A stretch of DNA of 64,000 bases, from assembly GCA_020073145.1 (NCBI GenBank), contig JAIQFS010000004.1, positions 62,001-126,000 of the forward strand, in the 5' to 3' direction. This DNA comes from Terriglobia bacterium. Lineage in GTDB: Bacteria; Acidobacteriota; Terriglobia; Bryobacterales; Bryobacteraceae. The translations under genes and the position numbers were made by a program. A model generated the notes under the pieces. The model was not told where the DNA came from. It saw only the letters and a list, made by a program, of their open reading frames with translations, and ran no database searches. Below, in pieces: positions 31,559 through 40,931 of the stretch. The first letter of the stretch is position 1. The number at the start of each line of letters is the position of its first letter.

Positions 31559-32485
31559 ATGGAAGCCGGCGCCCGCGACTTTGCATCGAAGTATCTGGTC
31601 AAACAGTTGGATCGCGTTGCTTTTCAAGTGAGCACCGCAATCGCGCGGCGCGATACCGAGGCCATTCACGACCTGAGAGTCGCCATGCGCAGGTTCGCGC
31701 AGGGCCTGGTGGTGTTCCGGCCGCATGTTGGCTCCAGGAAGCCGAAGAAGATCCGGCGAGCGCTGAAGCAGGTCATGGAACTTGCCGGCGCCGTGCGGGA
31801 TTACGACGTTGCCTTGGGATTTGTGTCGAAAATGGGTTCGCCCTATGCCGCCCGGCTTCGCAAGGCGCTGGGAGTGGAGCGCAAAAACGCCGAGCGCGAA
31901 CTCATCGAGAGCCTGAAGCACTGGGTGGCGCGAAAGACTTCGCGCAAGTGGCGGGAGGAACTGGAAGGGGCGCACTTTACGCGAATCCCCGACGAATTGA
32001 CGCCGGCCGAAATCGCCGGCGGCGAACTGCCCCGCATGGCCACGGCGTTCCTGGCGTGGGGCGAGCGCGCGGCCCGCACCAAATCATCGGCGGAAGAACT
32101 GCATCAATTCCGGCTCGCGGCAAAAAAGTTCCGCTACACACTCGAAATCTTCGCGGTTCTTTACCAGCAAAGTATCGAGATGTGGCTGCCACTGCTCAAG
32201 AAGGTACAGCAGCTCTTGGGCCGCATCAATGACTGCAGCAGTTTCCGGCGCCTGTTGTCTCGCCTCGGCAGACACCCGAAACTGGAGGCGCAGTTGAAAC
32301 TCAAAGAACGGCGGAGAACGGCCGAGTTTCGACGCTTCTGGACGCGCGAGGTTTCCGAATCCGCGGAAATTCAGCAGCGCGTGGAGCTGTTGCGACAACC
32401 GGCTGATTCCAGCCGTCCCCTCAAGAGGCCCGCCGGGCGCAGTTTGTCGTCACGCGGCGAACTCGTCTTAGTGGCGCACGCCTAG
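31559..32485 (+). CDS. CHAD domain protein (polyphosphate-binding)
   Basis: The 308-residue protein is almost all helix and carries the paired His/Arg-rich repeats of the CHAD domain: EAIHDLRVAMRRFAQGLVVF (residues about 35-54) and EELHQFRLAAKKFRYTLEIF (about 178-197). These basic helices form the positively charged channel that binds inorganic polyphosphate in the family. No CYTH triphosphatase domain is fused. It lies directly before the phosphate-signalling locus, which fits a role in polyphosphate handling. It ends in a shared CTAG with a small convergent gene. Confidence 0.88.
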   Translation: MEAGARDFASKYLVKQLDRVAFQVSTAIARRDTEAIHDLRVAMRRFAQGLVVFRPHVGSRKPKKIRRALKQVMELAGAVRDYDVALGFVSKMGSPYAARLRKALGVERKNAERELIESLKHWVARKTSRKWREELEGAHFTRIPDELTPAEIAGGELPRMATAFLAWGERAARTKSSAEELHQFRLAAKKFRYTLEIFAVLYQQSIEMWLPLLKKVQQLLGRINDCSSFRRLLSRLGRHPKLEAQLKLKERRRTAEFRRFWTREVSESAEIQQRVELLRQPADSSRPLKRPAGRSLSSRGELVLVAHA

Positions 32486-32767: not shown

Positions 32768-34129
32768 ATGACATCGATTTCGCGGAGGACCGTCGCGGCG
32801 GCGGCAGTCGCAATCGTACCGGTGATGGTGACCATCGCGATTTGGTCGCCAAGTCCCATCGCGCGGTGGCTAGTGCTGGTTTGGGGAACGATCGCACTGG
32901 CGGTGGCGTGGGCGACGGCACGGTCTCTATCCCGAAGGATCTCGGACCTGACCCGTTTCGCCAACGACCTGCCCAACCCGGGTTCCGTACGTCTGCGACT
33001 GCGTTTCCATGACGATGAGCTGGGAGAACTGGCCCGTTCGCTTTCCCGCACCGCGCCCCAAGTGGACGCCGTGCTCCAGGGGCTCAGCACCGAGTTGGCC
33101 CGCCGCGAAGCCATTCTGGCAAGCATGACGGAAGCGGTGCTGGCGGTGGACGCGAAACTCAACATCTCTTTCTGCAACGATGCTTTTGTCCAGGTGGTGG
33201 GGCACCCCATCGCTGAAGGGATTCCGCTGATCAAGGTATTTCGCGATCCGGGGTTATTCCAGGTCTTGCGACGCGTGATCGACTCCGGCGAAACGATCCG
33301 GCGGCGGTTGAGCATCTCGGTGCAGGCGGACCGCTGGTTTGACGTGTACGCCACGGCGCTGGGAAACCACCCGACAACGCCCGGCGCCTTAGCCATCCTC
33401 CAAGATGTCACGCCGGCAGAGCGGATGGAGCGGGCCCAGCGTGATTTCGTCGCGAATGTGTCGCATGAATTCCGAACTCCGTTGGCCACCATCACGGGCT
33501 GCGCGGAAACGTTGCTCGACGGAGCACTCGACGACCACGAGAACCGGCGCAAATTCCTGGAGGTGATTCACGCCAACAGCGTCCGGCTCACCAACATCGC
33601 GGCCGACCTGATCACTTTGTCGCAACTGGACGGCGGCGGGCCGCGCTCGGAGCCGGCGCCCATCTCCGTGGAAGAAGTGATTGCCGGCGCCCTTCATGTC
33701 ATGGAACCGGTGGCCGGTATGCACGGCATCCGGATCCGGGCGGACGAGATCTGCGCGTCCCGGATCTTGGGGCATCGAATCGCCTTCGAACACGCTTTCT
33801 TGAATTTGTTGGACAACGCCATCAAGTTCAGCAGGCCCCCTGGCGAGGTGGTGGTTCGAGCGGTCGTCAGCGAAGATGAGCATGTGGAAATCTCGGTGTC
33901 GGATTCTGGGATTGGGATACCGGCTGAGGAATTATCCCGCATCTTCGAGCGCTTTTATCGTGTGGACAAGGCGCGCTCGCGTCAAATTGGCGGGACCGGC
34001 CTGGGGTTGTCGATCGTCCGGCACGCGGTGGAGCGGATGCACGGCGTGGTGCGGGTGGAAAGCCAGTTGGGACAAGGCTCCTGTTTCACGATCGCCGTGC
34101 CGCGTTATGTCGAGGGACCGAGTTCTTAA
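32768..34129 (+). CDS. phoR: Phosphate-regulon-type sensor histidine kinase PhoR
   Basis: The 453-residue protein has two close N-terminal membrane helices (about 8-25 and 31-49) with almost no periplasmic loop, a short HAMP-like part, a PAS domain (about 111-215, ILASMTEAVLAVDAKLNISF) and the kinase core. HisKA has the phospho-acceptor His233 in NVSHEFRTPLATI. The ATPase has NLLDNAIKFS, VSDSGIGIPAEE and GGTGLGLSIVRHA. The lack of a sensory loop is typical of PhoR, which senses via PstSCAB and PhoU. It is upstream of the porin and pst genes. No phoB gene is adjacent. Confidence 0.88.
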   Translation: MTSISRRTVAAAAVAIVPVMVTIAIWSPSPIARWLVLVWGTIALAVAWATARSLSRRISDLTRFANDLPNPGSVRLRLRFHDDELGELARSLSRTAPQVDAVLQGLSTELARREAILASMTEAVLAVDAKLNISFCNDAFVQVVGHPIAEGIPLIKVFRDPGLFQVLRRVIDSGETIRRRLSISVQADRWFDVYATALGNHPTTPGALAILQDVTPAERMERAQRDFVANVSHEFRTPLATITGCAETLLDGALDDHENRRKFLEVIHANSVRLTNIAADLITLSQLDGGGPRSEPAPISVEEVIAGALHVMEPVAGMHGIRIRADEICASRILGHRIAFEHAFLNLLDNAIKFSRPPGEVVVRAVVSEDEHVEISVSDSGIGIPAEELSRIFERFYRVDKARSRQIGGTGLGLSIVRHAVERMHGVVRVESQLGQGSCFTIAVPRYVEGPSS

Positions 34130-34163
34130 CCGGACAGTCATCGTAAAATAACAATCCTTACGT
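34123..34163 (+). promoter_or_regulatory. Possible Pho box before the porin gene
   Basis: Units with an 11-bp period can be aligned as TNTTAAC-type repeats: TTAAC (34126-34130), GTCAT (34137-34141) and ATAAC (34148-34152), the middle one as CAGTCAT, six of seven bases of the E. coli CTGTCAT unit. It starts inside the end of phoR and lies about 170 bp before the porin ATG. The match is weaker than the pstS repeat. Confidence 0.35.
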
Positions 34164-34320
34164 ACTCTCATTCCTTAACTCCCTTTGGATGCAATTTGGG
34201 TTGCGATCACGCGGGTCCGAAGCTGCCGTGTGCCTCCATTTGCCGCCAGGGAGTTGCGCCAGACCGACGCGGGTTAACGAGGGCTGACGCTGGCCCTCTC
34301 CTGAAGAGAAGAAAGGAACT

Positions 34321-35997
34321 ATGACGAAGCAACGATATGCGATTCACGCACTGGCCTTCGCGGCTTTTGCCTCCCTATCCATCGGCTGGGCCGCGGATGT
34401 TCCGCCGCCGGATGCGAATAGCGGGAGCCAAGCGGCGCAGATCCAGCAGTTGAAAGCGCAGTTAGACCAGCAGCAGAGGCAGATCGAAGCCTTGCGAGTG
34501 GCGCTGGAGGCCCAGAAGAAAGCGTTGGAGCAAACCGAAAGCGCCGTGGCGCCGGCCGAGCCGGAGCACAAGATGCCGAACCTGGGCGACGTGGCCTCCA
34601 CCACGCCGTTCATTCCGCGCGGCGTGGCCCCGGCGGTGGCCGCGGCGGTGCCGCCGCCTCCCCCGCAGGCGGAAGCGGCAGCCCAGCCCTCGCCGTTGCA
34701 GATCCATCTCGGCGATGCCACCATCACGCCAGTCGGGTTCATGGATATCACCAACACCTTCCGGAGCACCAACGCCGGCTCCAGTCTGCAGACGAACTTC
34801 GGCAGCTTTCCATACAACAACACCGTTCAAGGACGGATGACGGAGGACAAGTGGAGCGCCGAGAACTCGCGTTTGGGGCTTCGGGTGGACGCCAAGGTAC
34901 ACGGCGCGAACGTGCTCGGATATTTTGAGGGCGACTTCGTTGGCCTCGGCAACGCCGCCAACAACACTCAGGTGTCCAGCAACAGCATGTTGTTCCGCAT
35001 CCGCCAGTATTATGTTGACGTGCGCAAGGGCTTCTGGGAAGTGCTAGCCGGCCAGGCCTGGAGCATGCTCCTGCCGAACCGCCGCGGCATGTCCCCGCTG
35101 CCCGCCGATCTGTTCTACACCCAGGTGGTCGACGTCAACTACACCAACGGCTTGTTCTGGGGCCGCATCCCGGGTATTCGAGTCATCGGCCACCCCAGCA
35201 AGACCGTGGCGTTCGGCCTGGCGCTGGAGAACTCCTCGCAGTACTTCGGAGGCTCCGGCGGCGGAGGCACTCCGGTTCTGCCGGCTGCTCTTGCCACGAG
35301 CTACAACACTGAACTGGACAACGGTGTGAACAACGATCGAACCATCGCCAACGTGCATCCGGATATCATCGCCAAGTTTACGGTGGATCCCTCCTCCAAG
35401 TTCCATTTCGAAATGGGCGGCGTAGAGAGCACAGTGCGGTTGTTCAACCAAGGCACCAACCAGTACTTCACCAAAGCCGGCGGCGGCGTAACGCTCAGCC
35501 TCAATGCCGAGATCGTGAAGAATCTCCGGGTGGTTACAGCAAACTACTATAACGACGGCGGCGGGCGCTACATCTTCGGCGCGGCGCCGAACTTCATCGT
35601 TCGCGCCGATGGCAGTCCTTCGCTGGTCCATTCGGCATCTACCGTTTCCGGCTTCGAGGCCAGCATTAAGAACTTCGCCCCGTATATCTACTACGGCGGA
35701 GTCTACATCGACCGCAACACCGCGCTGGACGCCAACGGAACGACCAGGATTGGCTATGGTTTCCCGGGCTCCGGCAACGGCCAGAACCGCAGCATTCAAG
35801 AAATCACAACCGGCTGGACCCATACCATCTGGCGCGATGGCAAATACGGCGCCCTGCAGTGGATGGCTCAGTATGCCTACCTCTTCCGCAACCCCTGGTC
35901 TGTGGCCGCGAATGCACCCAAAAACGCACATGAGAGCGTACTGTGGTTCAACTTGCGCTACGTGCTGCCGGGAAGCGCGCCGACAATCCAGTATTAG
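34321..35997 (+). CDS. Outer-membrane porin with N-terminal coiled coil, likely phosphate-induced
   Basis: The 558-residue product has a signal peptide (residues 1-25, GWAA), a Gln-rich coiled coil (about 39-78, AQIQQLKAQLDQQQRQIEAL) and a Pro/Ala linker. A long beta-barrel region follows that ends in an aromatic residue (PTIQY). The coiled-coil-plus-barrel plan is that of DcaP-type trimeric porins. An AAAGGAAC ribosome site precedes the ATG. Its place between phoR and pstS, with Pho-box-like repeats on both sides, suggests that it lets phosphate or phosphate esters across the outer membrane. Substrate selectivity is inferred from context only. Confidence 0.8.
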   Translation: MTKQRYAIHALAFAAFASLSIGWAADVPPPDANSGSQAAQIQQLKAQLDQQQRQIEALRVALEAQKKALEQTESAVAPAEPEHKMPNLGDVASTTPFIPRGVAPAVAAAVPPPPPQAEAAAQPSPLQIHLGDATITPVGFMDITNTFRSTNAGSSLQTNFGSFPYNNTVQGRMTEDKWSAENSRLGLRVDAKVHGANVLGYFEGDFVGLGNAANNTQVSSNSMLFRIRQYYVDVRKGFWEVLAGQAWSMLLPNRRGMSPLPADLFYTQVVDVNYTNGLFWGRIPGIRVIGHPSKTVAFGLALENSSQYFGGSGGGGTPVLPAALATSYNTELDNGVNNDRTIANVHPDIIAKFTVDPSSKFHFEMGGVESTVRLFNQGTNQYFTKAGGGVTLSLNAEIVKNLRVVTANYYNDGGGRYIFGAAPNFIVRADGSPSLVHSASTVSGFEASIKNFAPYIYYGGVYIDRNTALDANGTTRIGYGFPGSGNGQNRSIQEITTGWTHTIWRDGKYGALQWMAQYAYLFRNPWSVAANAPKNAHESVLWFNLRYVLPGSAPTIQY

Positions 35998-36014
35998 CGA
36001 CGACCCGCGACGAA

Positions 36015-36047
36015 CTGTAGCGAGATCGTAACCGAACTGTAACCAAC
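36015..36047 (+). promoter_or_regulatory. Three-unit Pho box upstream of pstS
   Basis: Three direct 11-bp units lie head to tail: CTGTAGCGAGA (36015-36025), TCGTAACCGAA (36026-36036) and CTGTAACCAAC (36037-36047). PhoB sites in other bacteria are 7-bp CTGTCAT-like units repeated every 11 bp, so the phasing is exact and the sequence close. The repeat ends 29 bases before the pstS ATG, with CAAAAT and an AAGGAGA ribosome site in between. Confidence 0.7.
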
Positions 36048-36076
36048 CGAATGGCAAAATTAAGGAGACAACGAAC

Positions 36077-37087
36077 ATGAAAAGACAATTGCTGGCCTTG
36101 GCGGGCGTATGCGCATTGGGCGTGTCCGTTGCCGCAGCACAACATATCACCGCCGCAGGAGCGACGTTTCCTGCGCCGGTCTACCAAAAGTGGTTCGATG
36201 AATACCACAAGATGCATTCCGGCGTCGAAGTCAACTATCAGTCCATTGGGTCGGGTGCGGGTATCCAGCAGTTGACCTCCGGAACGGTGGATTTCGGCGC
36301 GTCGGACATGCCGATGACGGATGCGCAGATCTCAAAGGTGAAGGTGCACACCCTGCATTTCCCCACGGTCCTGGGCGCCGTCGTGCCGACCTACAACATT
36401 GCGGGGGTCACCGCGGAGTTGAAATTCAGCGGCGAAGCGCTGGCGGGCATCTACCTGGGCGACATCAAGAAATGGAATGACCCGGCTCTGATGAAGGACA
36501 ACCCGGGCGTCAAGCTGCCGGCGGAAGACATCGTGGTGGTTCACCGGTCGGACGGGAGCGGCACGTCGTTTATCTGGACCGACTACCTGTCCAAAGTGAG
36601 TCCAACCTGGAAGAGTAAGGTGGGGGCCAACACGTCGGTGAGCTGGCCGGCGGGCCTGGGCGGTAAAGGGAACGAAGGCGTGGCGGGCACGGTCAAACAA
36701 ACTCCGAATTCGATCGGCTATGTCGAGTTGATCTACGCGATCCAAAACAATATGGCATACGGTTCGGTGAAGAACGAGGCCGGCGCCTACGTCAAAGCGA
36801 GTCTGGCGACGGTCAGTGCGGCAGCCGCGGGGGCGGCCAAGGAGATGCCGGAGGATTTCCGGGTTTCGATTACCAACGCCCCGGGGAAGACCGCGTATCC
36901 GATTTCGAGTTTCACGTGGATGCTGATTCCCAGTGAAATTCCGGATGCAGGCAAAGCCCAGGCCATCAAGGCCTTTCTGCAATGGATGGTGACCGACGGC
37001 CAAAAGATGACATCGGCCTTGGCCTACGCGCCGCTGCCGAAGGAAGTGGTCGCCAAGGAGACGAAACAGATCGCGATGATTAAATAG
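36077..37087 (+). CDS. pstS: Phosphate-binding periplasmic protein PstS
   Basis: The 336-residue protein has a signal peptide (residues 1-21, VAAAQ) and the PstS landmarks: AAGATFPAPVYQKWF at the mature start and YQSIGSGAGIQQLTSGTVDFG, then SDMPMTD. Further landmarks are LSGEALAGIYLGD-like FSGEALAGIYLGDIKKWND and VVHRSDGSGTSFIWTDYL. Ser, Thr, Asp and Arg residues in these loops bind phosphate. It delivers phosphate to the PstCA permease. A three-unit Pho box and a clear AAGGAGA site lie just before it. First gene of pstSCAB. Confidence 0.95.
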   Translation: MKRQLLALAGVCALGVSVAAAQHITAAGATFPAPVYQKWFDEYHKMHSGVEVNYQSIGSGAGIQQLTSGTVDFGASDMPMTDAQISKVKVHTLHFPTVLGAVVPTYNIAGVTAELKFSGEALAGIYLGDIKKWNDPALMKDNPGVKLPAEDIVVVHRSDGSGTSFIWTDYLSKVSPTWKSKVGANTSVSWPAGLGGKGNEGVAGTVKQTPNSIGYVELIYAIQNNMAYGSVKNEAGAYVKASLATVSAAAAGAAKEMPEDFRVSITNAPGKTAYPISSFTWMLIPSEIPDAGKAQAIKAFLQWMVTDGQKMTSALAYAPLPKEVVAKETKQIAMIK

Positions 37088-37113: not shown

Positions 37114-38076
37114 ATGGCTACTCAAACAGCGGTACTAGAACGGACCGCAGTTCGGAAAACGGCACAAACGGGCGACACCGTCGCCCGTTTGGTCGCTCTT
37201 ACCTTCGCCTCCGTGGTTCTGCTGATCGTCGCGGTTCTGGTATTCGAGTTGTGGGTGGGTTCGGCCGCGGCCCGCCACAAGCTGGGTTGGAGCTTCCTGT
37301 TTTCCTCCGATTGGGATCCTGTTACCGAAAAATTCGGGGCGGCGCCGTTTATGTACGGCACCGTGGTTACCTCGGTTTTGGCTTTGCTGATTTCCGTTCC
37401 GCTAGGCGTAGGCGCCGCGGTATTTCTCTCGGAGCTCGCGCCGGCCAGTATCTCCAACGCACTCACCTTTCTAATCGAGCTGCTGGCGGCGATTCCCAGC
37501 GTCATTTACGGGATGCTGGCGCTCTTCACGCTGGTGCCGTTGATGCGCAACTACGGCGAGCCCTTCCTGAAAAAGTCCTTCGGATTTCTTCCGCTTTTTC
37601 GAGGACCCGCCTTCGGCGTGGGGTTTTTGACGGCCGGCATGATTCTGGCCGTTATGTCGTTCCCTTTCATCATCTCGGTATCGCGTGAGGCTTTGCTGGC
37701 GGTGCCGCGCGACCAGCGGGAGGCGTCCCTGGCGTTGGGCGCCACACGATGGGAGACCACATCGCAAGTGGTCGTTCCCTACGCCCGGCTAGGCATACTC
37801 GGCTCGATTTTCCTGGGGCTCGCCCGCGCCTTGGGGGAGACGATGGCGGTCACCATGGTGATTGGCAACGACCCGAGCATTCACGCTTCGCTGTTTGCCC
37901 CGGGGTATACGATTGCCGCGGTCATCGCCAACGAGTTCACGGAAGCGACCGGCAGCGTCTACCCGGCGGCGTTGGTGGAACTGGGGCTGGTGCTGTTCTG
38001 CATCACCATTGTCATTAATGCGCTGGCGCGGATTTTGATCCTCGCCACCACCAGCAAGGGTTCCAAAAGGCCATAA
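37114..38076 (+). CDS. pstC: Phosphate ABC transporter permease PstC
   Basis: The 320-residue inner-membrane protein has about six to seven helices, the first at residues 26-48. Landmarks are FLSELAPASISNALTFLIEL, LAAIPSVIYGMLALFTLVPL and the EAA loop ALLAVPRDQREASLALGATRWET. The end of that loop contacts the PstB ATPase. Length and order match PstC. It starts 27 bases after pstS, with a weak ribosome site, and is followed by pstA after two bases. Confidence 0.94.
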   Translation: MATQTAVLERTAVRKTAQTGDTVARLVALTFASVVLLIVAVLVFELWVGSAAARHKLGWSFLFSSDWDPVTEKFGAAPFMYGTVVTSVLALLISVPLGVGAAVFLSELAPASISNALTFLIELLAAIPSVIYGMLALFTLVPLMRNYGEPFLKKSFGFLPLFRGPAFGVGFLTAGMILAVMSFPFIISVSREALLAVPRDQREASLALGATRWETTSQVVVPYARLGILGSIFLGLARALGETMAVTMVIGNDPSIHASLFAPGYTIAAVIANEFTEATGSVYPAALVELGLVLFCITIVINALARILILATTSKGSKRP

Positions 38077-38078
38077 CC

Positions 38079-38924
38079 ATGCTCCTGCGCTGGCGCAAAA
38101 CCGTCAACTACATCATGCTCGGGCTGACCGGTGTCTGCACGGTGCTGGCGGTTTCGGCTCTTTTCGTCATCCTGGCGTATCTGCTGTACTTTGGCGGCAA
38201 GTCCCTGGATTGGAACTTCTTCACCAAACTCCCCGCTCCGCCTGGGGAAAGCGGGGGAGGCATGGCCAACGCCATCGTGGGCAGCCTGGAAATCCTGGGG
38301 TTGGCGGGTCTGATCGGCATCCCCGTGGGATTTCTGGCGGGCGTGTACCTCTCCGAATTCGAAGACAAAGCTTTTGCGGCGCTGGTGCGATACACGGCGG
38401 ACCTGCTGAACGGCGTGCCGTCCATCATCGTAGGGATTCTGGCGTGGGCCCTGGTGGTGGTCCCGATGAAGACCTTTTCGGCGCTGGCCGGCGCCATCGC
38501 CTTGAGCGTGATGCTGATTCCGATCGTGACGCGGCAGACGGAACAATTCCTGCGGGAGGTCCCCATGGCCCTCCGGGAAGGGGCTTTGGCGCTGGGCGCC
38601 AATAAGTGGAAAATGATCGCCACCGTGGTGGTGCCGGCAGGAAGCAAGGGCGTCCTGACCGGGATGATCCTGGGCATGGCGCGGATTGCCGGCGAAGCCG
38701 CGCCTTTGCTGTTCACTGCTCTCAACAACCAGTTCTGGGCCCGCGGCCTCAGGCAGCCGACCGCAACCCTGCCCTACATGATTTTCTATAAGGCCGGTGC
38801 GCCCTATGAGGATTGGCATCGCGAGGCCTGGGCGGCTGGGCTGGTCCTGATCACGATGGTGTTGGTCGCAAACATTCTGGCCCGAATGGTTTTAGCGCGG
38901 GGGATCTCGGTTCCGCGCGGATAA
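38079..38924 (+). CDS. pstA: Phosphate ABC transporter permease PstA
   Basis: The 281-residue inner-membrane protein has six helices. It shows FFTKLPAPPGESGGGMANAI, typical of PstA, YTADLLNGVPSIIVGILAW, and the EAA loop MALREGALALGANKWKMI. It forms the phosphate channel with PstC. The start lies two bases after the pstC stop, with AAAAGG just upstream, indicating coupled translation. Confidence 0.94.
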   Translation: MLLRWRKTVNYIMLGLTGVCTVLAVSALFVILAYLLYFGGKSLDWNFFTKLPAPPGESGGGMANAIVGSLEILGLAGLIGIPVGFLAGVYLSEFEDKAFAALVRYTADLLNGVPSIIVGILAWALVVVPMKTFSALAGAIALSVMLIPIVTRQTEQFLREVPMALREGALALGANKWKMIATVVVPAGSKGVLTGMILGMARIAGEAAPLLFTALNNQFWARGLRQPTATLPYMIFYKAGAPYEDWHREAWAAGLVLITMVLVANILARMVLARGISVPRG

Positions 38925-38936
38925 CAGGAAGACTCT

Positions 38937-39767
38937 ATGGCGCCCACCCCCATGTCACCACCGCCGCGATCATCCCGCCCGGAATCTGTGCCGAAAATCC
39001 TAGAACCGGTGCCCGCCGTGAAACCCAAGCTCAAGGCCAGCAATATCAATTTTTACTACGGTGCGTTCCAGGCGCTGCATGACATTTCGCTGGACATGCA
39101 CACGAACCAGATCACGGCCTTGATCGGTCCTTCGGGCTGCGGCAAGTCGACGTTCCTGCGGACGCTGAACCGGATCAACGAGACGATTCGCCACTCGCGG
39201 GTCGAAGGGAAGATCCTGCTGGACGACGAAGACGTTCTGGGCGTGGATGTCACCAGCCTGCGGAGGCGCGTCGGGATGGTCTTCCAACGGCCCAATCCCT
39301 TTCCCAAATCGATCGCGGAGAATATCGCCTACGGCCTGAGGATTAATGGCATGGCCTCGCGCGGCGAGATGAAGGACCGGGTGGAGCACAGCCTGCGCCG
39401 GGCCGCTCTATGGGACGAAGTGAAGGACAAGCTCAACGAATCGGCCTACGCGCTATCGGGCGGCCAGCAGCAGCGGCTGTGTATCGCGCGGGCGCTGGCG
39501 GTGGACCCGGAAGTGCTTCTGCTGGACGAGCCGTGCTCGGCGCTCGATCCCATCGCCACGGCCAAGATCGAGGAGTTGATGTTCGGCCTCAAGGATCAAT
39601 GCACCATGGTCATCGTGACCCACAACATGCAGCAGGCCGCCCGCGTGGCCGACAATACGGGATTCTTCCTGCTGGGCAAGATGATCGAGTTCGACAAGAC
39701 CGACACCATCTTCAAAAACCCTTCGCGCAAGGAAACTGAAGACTATATTACGGGCCGGTTCGGTTAG
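38937..39767 (+). CDS. pstB: Phosphate ABC transporter ATP-binding protein PstB
   Basis: The 276-residue ATPase has Walker [10 protein letters not shown], the Q loop in [15 protein letters not shown], the signature [15 protein letters not shown] and Walker [14 protein letters not shown], then [13 protein letters not shown]. The N-terminus is about 30 residues longer than usual, being Pro/Ser-rich ([18 protein letters not shown]), with no obvious function. AGGAAGA precedes the ATG at 38937. It powers PstCA and, with PhoU, takes part in signalling to PhoR. Confidence 0.95.
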
Positions 39768-39820: not shown

Positions 39821-40489
39821 GTGCGGCACTTTACCATCGAACTGGAAGAACTCAATCAGAAGCTGCTGCAGATGGGCGGGCTGGTGGAGCAGGCCATTCA
39901 CCGCAGTGTCCGGGCGTTGCTGGAACAAGACCGGGACCTGGCCGAAGAAGTCATCCGCGATGAGCCCAAGATCAACCGCATGGAGATGGAGATCGACGGT
40001 TTGGTCACGCGCCTGTTGGCGCTGCGCCAGCCAGTGGCGCGCGATCTACGCCTGCTGACGGCCGCGCTCAAGATCAACAACGACCTGGAGCGTATCGGAG
40101 ACCTCGCCAACCATATCGCCGAACGCTCCCTGTCGCTGATGCACCATCCGCTGGTGAAGCCGATGACGGACATTCCCAAGATGGCGTCCCTGGTGCAGTC
40201 GATGCTGCTGAAGTGCCTGGATGCGTTCGTCAACAGTGACGCCGATTTGGCTCACACCGTACTGCTCTCCGACGCCGAGGTGGACCTGTTGCGGGACGGC
40301 GTCTATAGCGAGCTGCTCGAGATCATGCAGCGCGATCCGAGCGTGCTGACGGCGGCCATCGACCTGATCTTCGTGGCGCGCAACCTGGAGCGAATTGGAG
40401 ATCACGCTACCAATATTGCCGAGGACGTGGTGTTTCTGGTGAAAGGAATTGACGTTCGGCACCATGCCGAACAAACGGAGAGCGCGTAG
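39821..40489 (+). CDS. phoU: Phosphate signalling complex protein PhoU
   Basis: The 222-residue protein is two three-helix bundles. Each has the metal-binding pattern of the family: the first with EEVIRDEPKINRMEMEIDGL and AALKINNDLERIGDLANHIAE, the second with LSDAEVDLLRDGVYSELLEI and DLIFVARNLERIGDHATNIAED. It starts at GTG, eight bases after a strong GAGGAGG site; the N-terminus FTIELEELNQKLLQMG confirms the start. PhoU damps PstSCAB transport and keeps PhoR in its inhibiting state when phosphate is plentiful. Confidence 0.94.
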   Translation: MRHFTIELEELNQKLLQMGGLVEQAIHRSVRALLEQDRDLAEEVIRDEPKINRMEMEIDGLVTRLLALRQPVARDLRLLTAALKINNDLERIGDLANHIAERSLSLMHHPLVKPMTDIPKMASLVQSMLLKCLDAFVNSDADLAHTVLLSDAEVDLLRDGVYSELLEIMQRDPSVLTAAIDLIFVARNLERIGDHATNIAEDVVFLVKGIDVRHHAEQTESA

Positions 40490-40532
40490 GGCGCGGCTCC
40501 CAGATTTCATTCCGGTTTATATGGGATTGCGA

Positions 40533-40538
40533 TATCAT
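40533..40538 (+). promoter_or_regulatory. Putative leaderless -10 element (TATCAT)
   Basis: TATCAT occupies positions -12 to -7 relative to the ATG at 40545, the place expected when transcription starts at the A of the ATG. There is no ribosome site. Confidence 0.4.
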
Positions 40539-40544
40539 GAGAAT

Positions 40545-40931
40545 ATGCCAGTGAAAGCCGAGCAAGAGTCCGTAATTCTGGCGATGGACCGCGGGAACGG
40601 CGATGTCAGGCTGATTACAACCACCTTAGAGAAGGCCGGGTTTCAGGTGTCCGCCTCCTCGGACCAACCGAGCATATTGAATCTGTGCCGCGCGGCCGAT
40701 CATTGCGTTCGACTCGTCATCATCGATACCACTGCCCCTGAAATTCAGACCTCCGAACTCGTGGAAGGCTTGCGCCAGATCGATCCGGGAATCCGGGTCA
40801 TCACGGTGTCGGACCAGAACGAGTCCAACGCCCCCGGAACCCGAGTCGGGCATCTGAAGCGGCCGTTCCGGCGCGCTCAATTGCTGGGATCCGTCCTCGA
40901 AGCCACTCAACCGTTGTATCGCACGGCCTGA
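40545..40931 (+). CDS. Stand-alone receiver-like domain protein, semi-degenerate
   Basis: The 128-residue product has the receiver-fold pattern: strand SVILAMDRGNGDVRL, helix TTTLEKAGFQVSAS, the phosphorylation-site strand LVIIDTTAPEIQTSELV with Asp61, strand IRVITVSDQ and the C-terminal Lys loop LKRPFRRAQLLG. Asp61 and Lys105 are in place, but the N-terminal acidic pair is MD instead of DD and the Lys loop has an extra Arg before Pro. It has no output domain. It follows phoU, but a TATCAT -10 immediately before the ATG suggests its own leaderless transcript. Partner unknown. Confidence 0.65.
   Translation: MPVKAEQESVILAMDRGNGDVRLITTTLEKAGFQVSASSDQPSILNLCRAADHCVRLVIIDTTAPEIQTSELVEGLRQIDPGIRVITVSDQNESNAPGTRVGHLKRPFRRAQLLGSVLEATQPLYRTA

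Follow-up and report, generated by a model that had tools for sequence, protein, structure and literature searches.

The window analyzed here, the whole 64,000-nucleotide stretch of DNA from a soil acidobacterium, contains a pst gene cluster in which pstS is preceded by three short direct repeats, and the locus raises the question of whether these repeats form an operator of the PhoB type. The relevant features, including a PhoR/PnpS-like kinase gene that stands upstream of a porin-like gene, are as follows.

32768..34129, + strand: PhoR/PnpS-like sensor kinase gene (PAS, HisKA and HATPase domains; best NCBIfam scores below the curated cut-offs)
34321..35997, + strand: porin-like gene upstream of pstS (C-terminal pattern)
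36015..36047, + strand: three 11-bp units, CTGTAGCGAGA TCGTAACCGAA CTGTAACCAAC, forming the putative pstS Pho box (sequence, pitch and matrices)
36052..36060, + strand: putative extended -10 element, consisting of TG, one base and CAAAAT (column conservation in 31 sites and sequence)
36062..36067, + strand: AAGGAG, a Shine-Dalgarno-like sequence for pstS that overlaps the predicted transcript start
36077..37087, + strand: pstS (TIGR00975, 406 bits against a cut-off of 205)
37114..38076, + strand: pstC (TIGR02138, above cut-off)
38079..38924, + strand: pstA (TIGR00974, above cut-off)
38937..39767, + strand: pstB (TIGR00972, above cut-off)
39821..40489, + strand: phoU (TIGR02135, above cut-off)

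We infer the porin identity of the gene before pstS, because its product has no NCBIfam match and its Pfam match is weak and below cut-off. In the loci of 11 relatives, pstS is likewise preceded by a gene with this C-terminal pattern. The kinase gene is itself directly preceded by a CHAD-domain gene (31559-32485); CHAD domains bind polyphosphate. A small protein is encoded after phoU (40449-40931) and shows a weak receiver-domain match below the Pfam cut-off.

The array is located in the 79 bases that separate the stop codon of the porin-like gene (ending at 35997) from the pstS ATG (36077). Its units, CTGTAGC (36015-36021), TCGTAAC (36026-36032) and CTGTAAC (36037-36043), follow each other in exact 11-bp steps, and the exact 11-bp-phased triple that a preliminary description had reported before pstS was thereby borne out, with each unit at its reported position. 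A Pho box is described, in an excerpt of PMC4415409, as two or more 11-nt direct repeats with seven well conserved and four less conserved positions, and the pstS array has three such repeats. In the 6.32-Mb genome, the triple pattern matches exactly only at the pstS array and twice more with three mismatches; the exact pattern is weak evidence alone because it was derived from the array itself. Relaxing the pattern to two units and as many as three mismatches yields four matches in the window against 1.15 expected, two of them in the pstS array. The nearest named relatives belong to the Bryobacterales and other Terriglobia.

The spacing of the units was examined in pstS upstream regions drawn from whole-genome relatives and named genome contigs. 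Of 30 whole-genome loci, L032, L033, L037 and L038 were dropped as weak or partial matches, which left 106 loci from both sources, and the removal of three loci with too short upstream sequence and two duplicates gave 101 regions. Of these, 54 were classed as acidobacterial, or 52 without two near-duplicates, the window's own region included. GTAAC pairs occur at a pitch of 11 in 16 of the 101 regions, at no other pitch from 6 to 20, at pitch 21 in one region and at pitch 22 in three; reverse-strand pairs are absent from all 101 regions at pitches 6-24. Among the 52 acidobacterial regions, too, 16 have GTAAC pairs at pitch 11, and none has them at another pitch between 6 and 20. As a positive control, GTCA[CT] pairs were found at pitch 11 in 29 of the 101 regions, mostly from Proteobacteria, in which the Pho box is known; on the reverse strand, these pairs occur at pitch 12 in 12 of the 101 regions and in three at most at a few other pitches. 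With the broader unit [GT]T[AC]A[CT], pairs, triples and quadruples at pitch 11 are observed in 30, 13 and 5 of the 52 acidobacterial regions, respectively. The other forward-strand pitches between 6 and 20 give at most three pairs and no triples, and the reverse strand gives at most six pairs (pitch 12) and one triple (pitch 6).

The 11-bp pitch extends beyond the close relatives. A further set of 68 pstS regions, taken from other acidobacterial families, combined 28 loci anchored by tblastn (L227-L254, including L231 and L241) with 40 stretches hand-picked to spread over families, one region being only 204 bases long. Unit pairs are present at pitch 11 in 29 of these regions and at any other pitch in no more than four; triples are present in 15 and GTAAC pairs in 12, each at pitch 11 exclusively. 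Two results count against a Pho box: 39 of the 68 regions have no pitch-11 unit pair at all, and the reverse strand has pitch-11 pairs in eight regions and triples in three. Five of these eight regions belong to one family (f27) and may reflect divergent promoters. Pitch-11 pairs occur in 17 of 21 regions in family f8, which belongs to the same class, and in 12 of 47 elsewhere; the motif is therefore frequent in that class and patchy outside it.

Matrix searches gave a corresponding picture of conservation before pstS. With an 18-column matrix, sites were detected in 35 of the 52 acidobacterial regions, the window included, and the 17 regions that have no site count against the interpretation. 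The scores in the 52 regions split clearly into values of at least 14.3 and values of 4.5 or less, and 0.3% of 1040 dinucleotide shuffles reach 12 bits. Because the matrix had been trained on the same 52 regions, the search was repeated with each region left out in turn, and 35 of the 52 still score at least 10 bits on the forward strand. The reverse-strand control, with 3 of 52 regions at 10 bits or more and 6 of 52 at 8 bits or more, counts against a Pho box. The pstS array itself scores 25.6 bits forward and 2.3 bits on the reverse strand in the leave-one-out search.

An anchored alignment of the 31 sites with enough flanking sequence, the window's site among them, shows conserved T and A positions in two more 11-bp registers upstream of the trained part. 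Downstream, it shows a TGn-nAnAnT pattern, whose hexamer (columns 28-33) starts 10 nt after the last GTAAC. Both the additional upstream registers and the -10 columns lay outside the trained part of the matrix. When 33 relatives, with neither this genome nor L019 among them, were used to build a 45-column matrix, the pstS array ranked first in the window at 26.3 bits, and the next separate site on either strand scored 6.7 bits.

A sequence model of the alignment behind the 45-column matrix, from which the pstS array was omitted, has six matches in the bacterium's own genome at E values up to 10. The pstS array ranks first (E = 0.0086), a site before a tetratricopeptide repeat (TPR) protein gene on contig C63 second (0.016), and sites on C66, before a phoB-like gene, and on C57 are tied third (0.068); matches on C1 and C23 are weaker. 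Two of the six matches thus precede clear phosphate genes, and the site before the TPR protein gene and the three others have no evident phosphate link, which counts against the interpretation. A lack of motif enrichment near phosphate genes had been proposed earlier as a refutation, and this genome-wide ranking, with pstS first and the phoB-like gene tied third, does not refute the interpretation.

The same motif is present before the phoB-like gene in this genome and its relatives. The phoB-like orthologue set has matches in 52 of 61 genomes. Thirty loci were used, and 26, including that of the bacterium's own genome, were analyzed after a start pattern had failed in four. The pstS-trained matrix gives at least 5 bits in 24 of the 26 loci and at least 12 bits in 16, compared with 0.5% and 0% of 2600 shuffles, respectively, and with none of the 26 in-gene controls. 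In this genome, the array before the phoB-like gene consists of four units in 11-bp steps, TTAAT, TTCAC, TTAAC and GTAAC (L127:4324, 4335, 4346 and 4357). The gene order on C66 is phoB-like gene 1, PhoR-like kinase gene and phoB-like gene 2 (G000 C66:24136-27101, equal to L127:2137-5102), and the four-unit box of phoB-like gene 2 overlaps the end of the kinase gene.

In a scan of the relatives, 18 loci were read. Two sites precede phoB-like gene 2, one precedes a PhoU-domain gene and one precedes a pstS paralogue that was already in the training set. Three stand before outer-membrane barrel genes and four before dnaA in one genus; for the remaining seven, no gene on the same strand is clearly related to phosphate, although L138, which belongs to these seven, lies approximately 70 bases before a divergent PhoB-like gene. 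The genes downstream of the three Pho-box-like sites (L147, L148 and L149; L147 named by eye) encode large barrels with carboxypeptidase-regulatory-like domains. The sites before dnaA (L157, L158, L159 and L161, near position 1500; named by eye) share a conserved TTTAACN6GTAAC-like sequence approximately 200 bases upstream of the gene in four genomes of one related genus.

Within the window, a weaker copy of the motif is found before the porin-like gene.

34125..34169, + strand: weaker Pho-box-like array before the porin-like gene, with TTAAC at 34126, GTCAT at 34137 and ATAAC at 34148 (6.4 bits, 45-column matrix)

Its units are spaced at the 11-bp pitch, and the array is not among the six genome-wide model matches, which counts against the interpretation. 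Twelve regions with a porin C-terminal pattern gene before pstS, the window included, were compared by raw matrix score for sites before the porin-like gene. The best sites score 20.4 (L043), 15.1 (L046) and 13.2 (L061); six regions lie between 5.0 and 9.4, with the window at 6.4, and three regions stay below 2 (L044, L054 and L070), the start codon of L044 being possibly wrong. L043, L046 and the window have TTAA[CT], GTCAT and [GA]TAAC in a common register before the porin-like gene, and a GTCAT unit is therefore probably used in this genome.

The candidate regulators are the two PhoB-like proteins encoded on C66. Among NCBIfam families, both match TIGR02154 best, with 256.4 and 236.4 bits against a curated cut-off of 296.2. 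Because these scores are below the cut-off, the proteins are named PhoB-like, and the shortfall counts against a Pho box. They are 46 and 41% identical to E. coli PhoB. Thr194, Val197, Arg201 and Arg219 are the base-contacting residues of E. coli PhoB according to an excerpt of PMC3973317; Val197, Arg201 and Arg219 are kept in both proteins, and position 194 is Thr in the first and Ala in the second. Many relatives have a close orthologue of phoB-like gene 2 and only a distant match to gene 1, and G018 shows the reverse. Boxes are present in both groups of genomes. At positions 198 and 200, one acidobacterial regulator type has His/Arg and the other Tyr/Leu. A search for a single recognition-helix residue matching the C-to-A change in the core gave no candidate in these positions, as genomes with either regulator type keep the boxes. 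The pst-adjacent regulators caught by a regular expression are nearly all proteobacterial.

Another OmpR-family regulator of the MtrA-, RegX3- or CreB-like kind could also bind direct repeats, in response to a signal other than phosphate. The genome has 15 Trans_reg_C matches, the best full-length solved relatives of the two PhoB-like proteins, both short of the PhoB cut-off, are MtrA and RegX3, and the sites before outer-membrane barrel genes and dnaA in some relatives would suit such a regulator. This alternative is nevertheless improbable, given that many genera carry the motif upstream of pstS and phoB-like genes and one genus upstream of a PhoU-domain gene, and given TIGR02154 as the best family of both regulators.

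The sequence downstream of the array bears on how a PhoB-type operator would serve pstS. A scan of 35900-36150 found no classical -35/-10 (sigma-70) promoter and no terminator-like hairpin. CAAAAT at 36055-36060 begins 11 nt past the last GTAAC, and a count of 10 nt makes the hexamer GCAAAA; as a -10 hexamer it is poor, which counts against a Pho box. With a -10 element at 36055-36060, transcription would start at approximately 36067, inside or just after the Shine-Dalgarno sequence, and approximately 10 bases would be left ahead of the pstS ATG. This overlap also counts against the interpretation; either the transcript starts closer to the -10 element, or the leader of the Pho transcript is very short. 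The same crowding of the Shine-Dalgarno sequence is seen in near relatives, such as L014, L015, L043 and L046.

The array could instead act in RNA, for example as leader sequence between the porin-like gene and pstS, and its position does fall inside a possible joint transcript of the two genes. An RNA element is very improbable, as the 11-bp register and a near-fixed distance to the -10 element are kept, the same array precedes phoB-like genes in this genome and in relatives, and the hairpin scan was negative. A chance repeat is the least probable explanation of all: GTAAC is short and the unit pair recurs twice more in the window with three mismatches, but conservation, the pitch spectra and the first rank in the genome by a model built without the pstS array speak against coincidence.

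Compared with known Pho boxes, the acidobacterial arrays are similar in geometry and differ in the core. Like Pho boxes, they are placed before phosphate-uptake and Pho regulator genes, here pstS and the phoB-like loci. Upstream of E. coli K-12 pstS, GTCAT, GTCAT, TTACA and GTCAC follow in 11-bp steps, and after 10 nt comes TATTTT, which we take to be the -10 element. The 10-bp distance between Pho boxes and -10 in E. coli is also given in an excerpt of PMC1906773. The acidobacterial arrays share the 11-bp head-to-tail units and the distance of approximately 10 nt from the last unit to the -10 element (10 or 11 nt at pstS, with its poor hexamer), but they have mostly CTGTAAC where the E. coli core is CTGTCAT (PMC4415409, excerpt), and their alignment shows a TG ahead of the -10 element. 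The E. coli-type core is represented in the window by the single GTCAT unit of the porin array. The cyanobacterial SphR box, CTTAACCT in at least three units (PMC1906773, excerpt), is alike in having three or more 11-bp units and a TAAC core, but TAAC is preceded by T in that box and by G in most acidobacterial units, and the upstream acidobacterial units are often TTAAC or TTCAC. The Streptomyces PhoP box, GTTCACC (PMC4415409, excerpt), likewise consists of 11-nt direct repeat units, and TTCAC also occurs in acidobacterial arrays; unlike in Streptomyces, it is a minor form there, mostly upstream of GTAAC units.

Of the preliminary interpretation, the PhoB-like geometry stands, with 11-bp head-to-tail units, often three or four, and a -10 element approximately 10 nt on. 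Its core of GTAAC rather than GTCAT was too strongly put: GTAAC is the commonest unit, yet TTAAC, TTCAC, GTCAC and GTCAT occur in the same registers, and a pure GTAAC core was rejected.

The pstS array is thus very likely an ordinary PhoB-type operator, a putative Pho box that replaces the -35 element of the pstS promoter, and it is probably a real switch site because many relatives share it. Under phosphate limitation, a PhoB-like response regulator in its phosphorylated form would occupy the 11-bp units in head-to-tail order and substitute for the -35 element, and pstSCAB-phoU would be transcribed from the extended -10 element ten to eleven bases downstream of the units. In this scheme, we infer the identity of the binding regulator, its phosphorylation and the induction by starvation.

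A broader and rather doubtful proposal concerns the Pho regulon of the family, which may comprise two diverged PhoB-like paralogues, one sensor kinase and a shared GTAAC-type array. One paralogue would be autoregulated through the four-unit box, and pstS could be translated from two kinds of message, a porin read-through with a full Shine-Dalgarno sequence and a Pho-induced transcript that starts inside the Shine-Dalgarno sequence and has a leader of approximately 10 bases.

Among the matches listed from open papers, no title or abstract names an acidobacterial Pho box. The array appears to be a well-conserved operator of the Pho-box type, with a TGTAAC-rich core and an ordinary design; as far as the literature search reaches, it is new for this little-studied phylum. 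The TGTAAC core falls between the proteobacterial TGTCAT and the cyanobacterial TTAAC forms, and a Terriglobia matrix would make phosphate regulons predictable in a phylum that is among the most common in soil.
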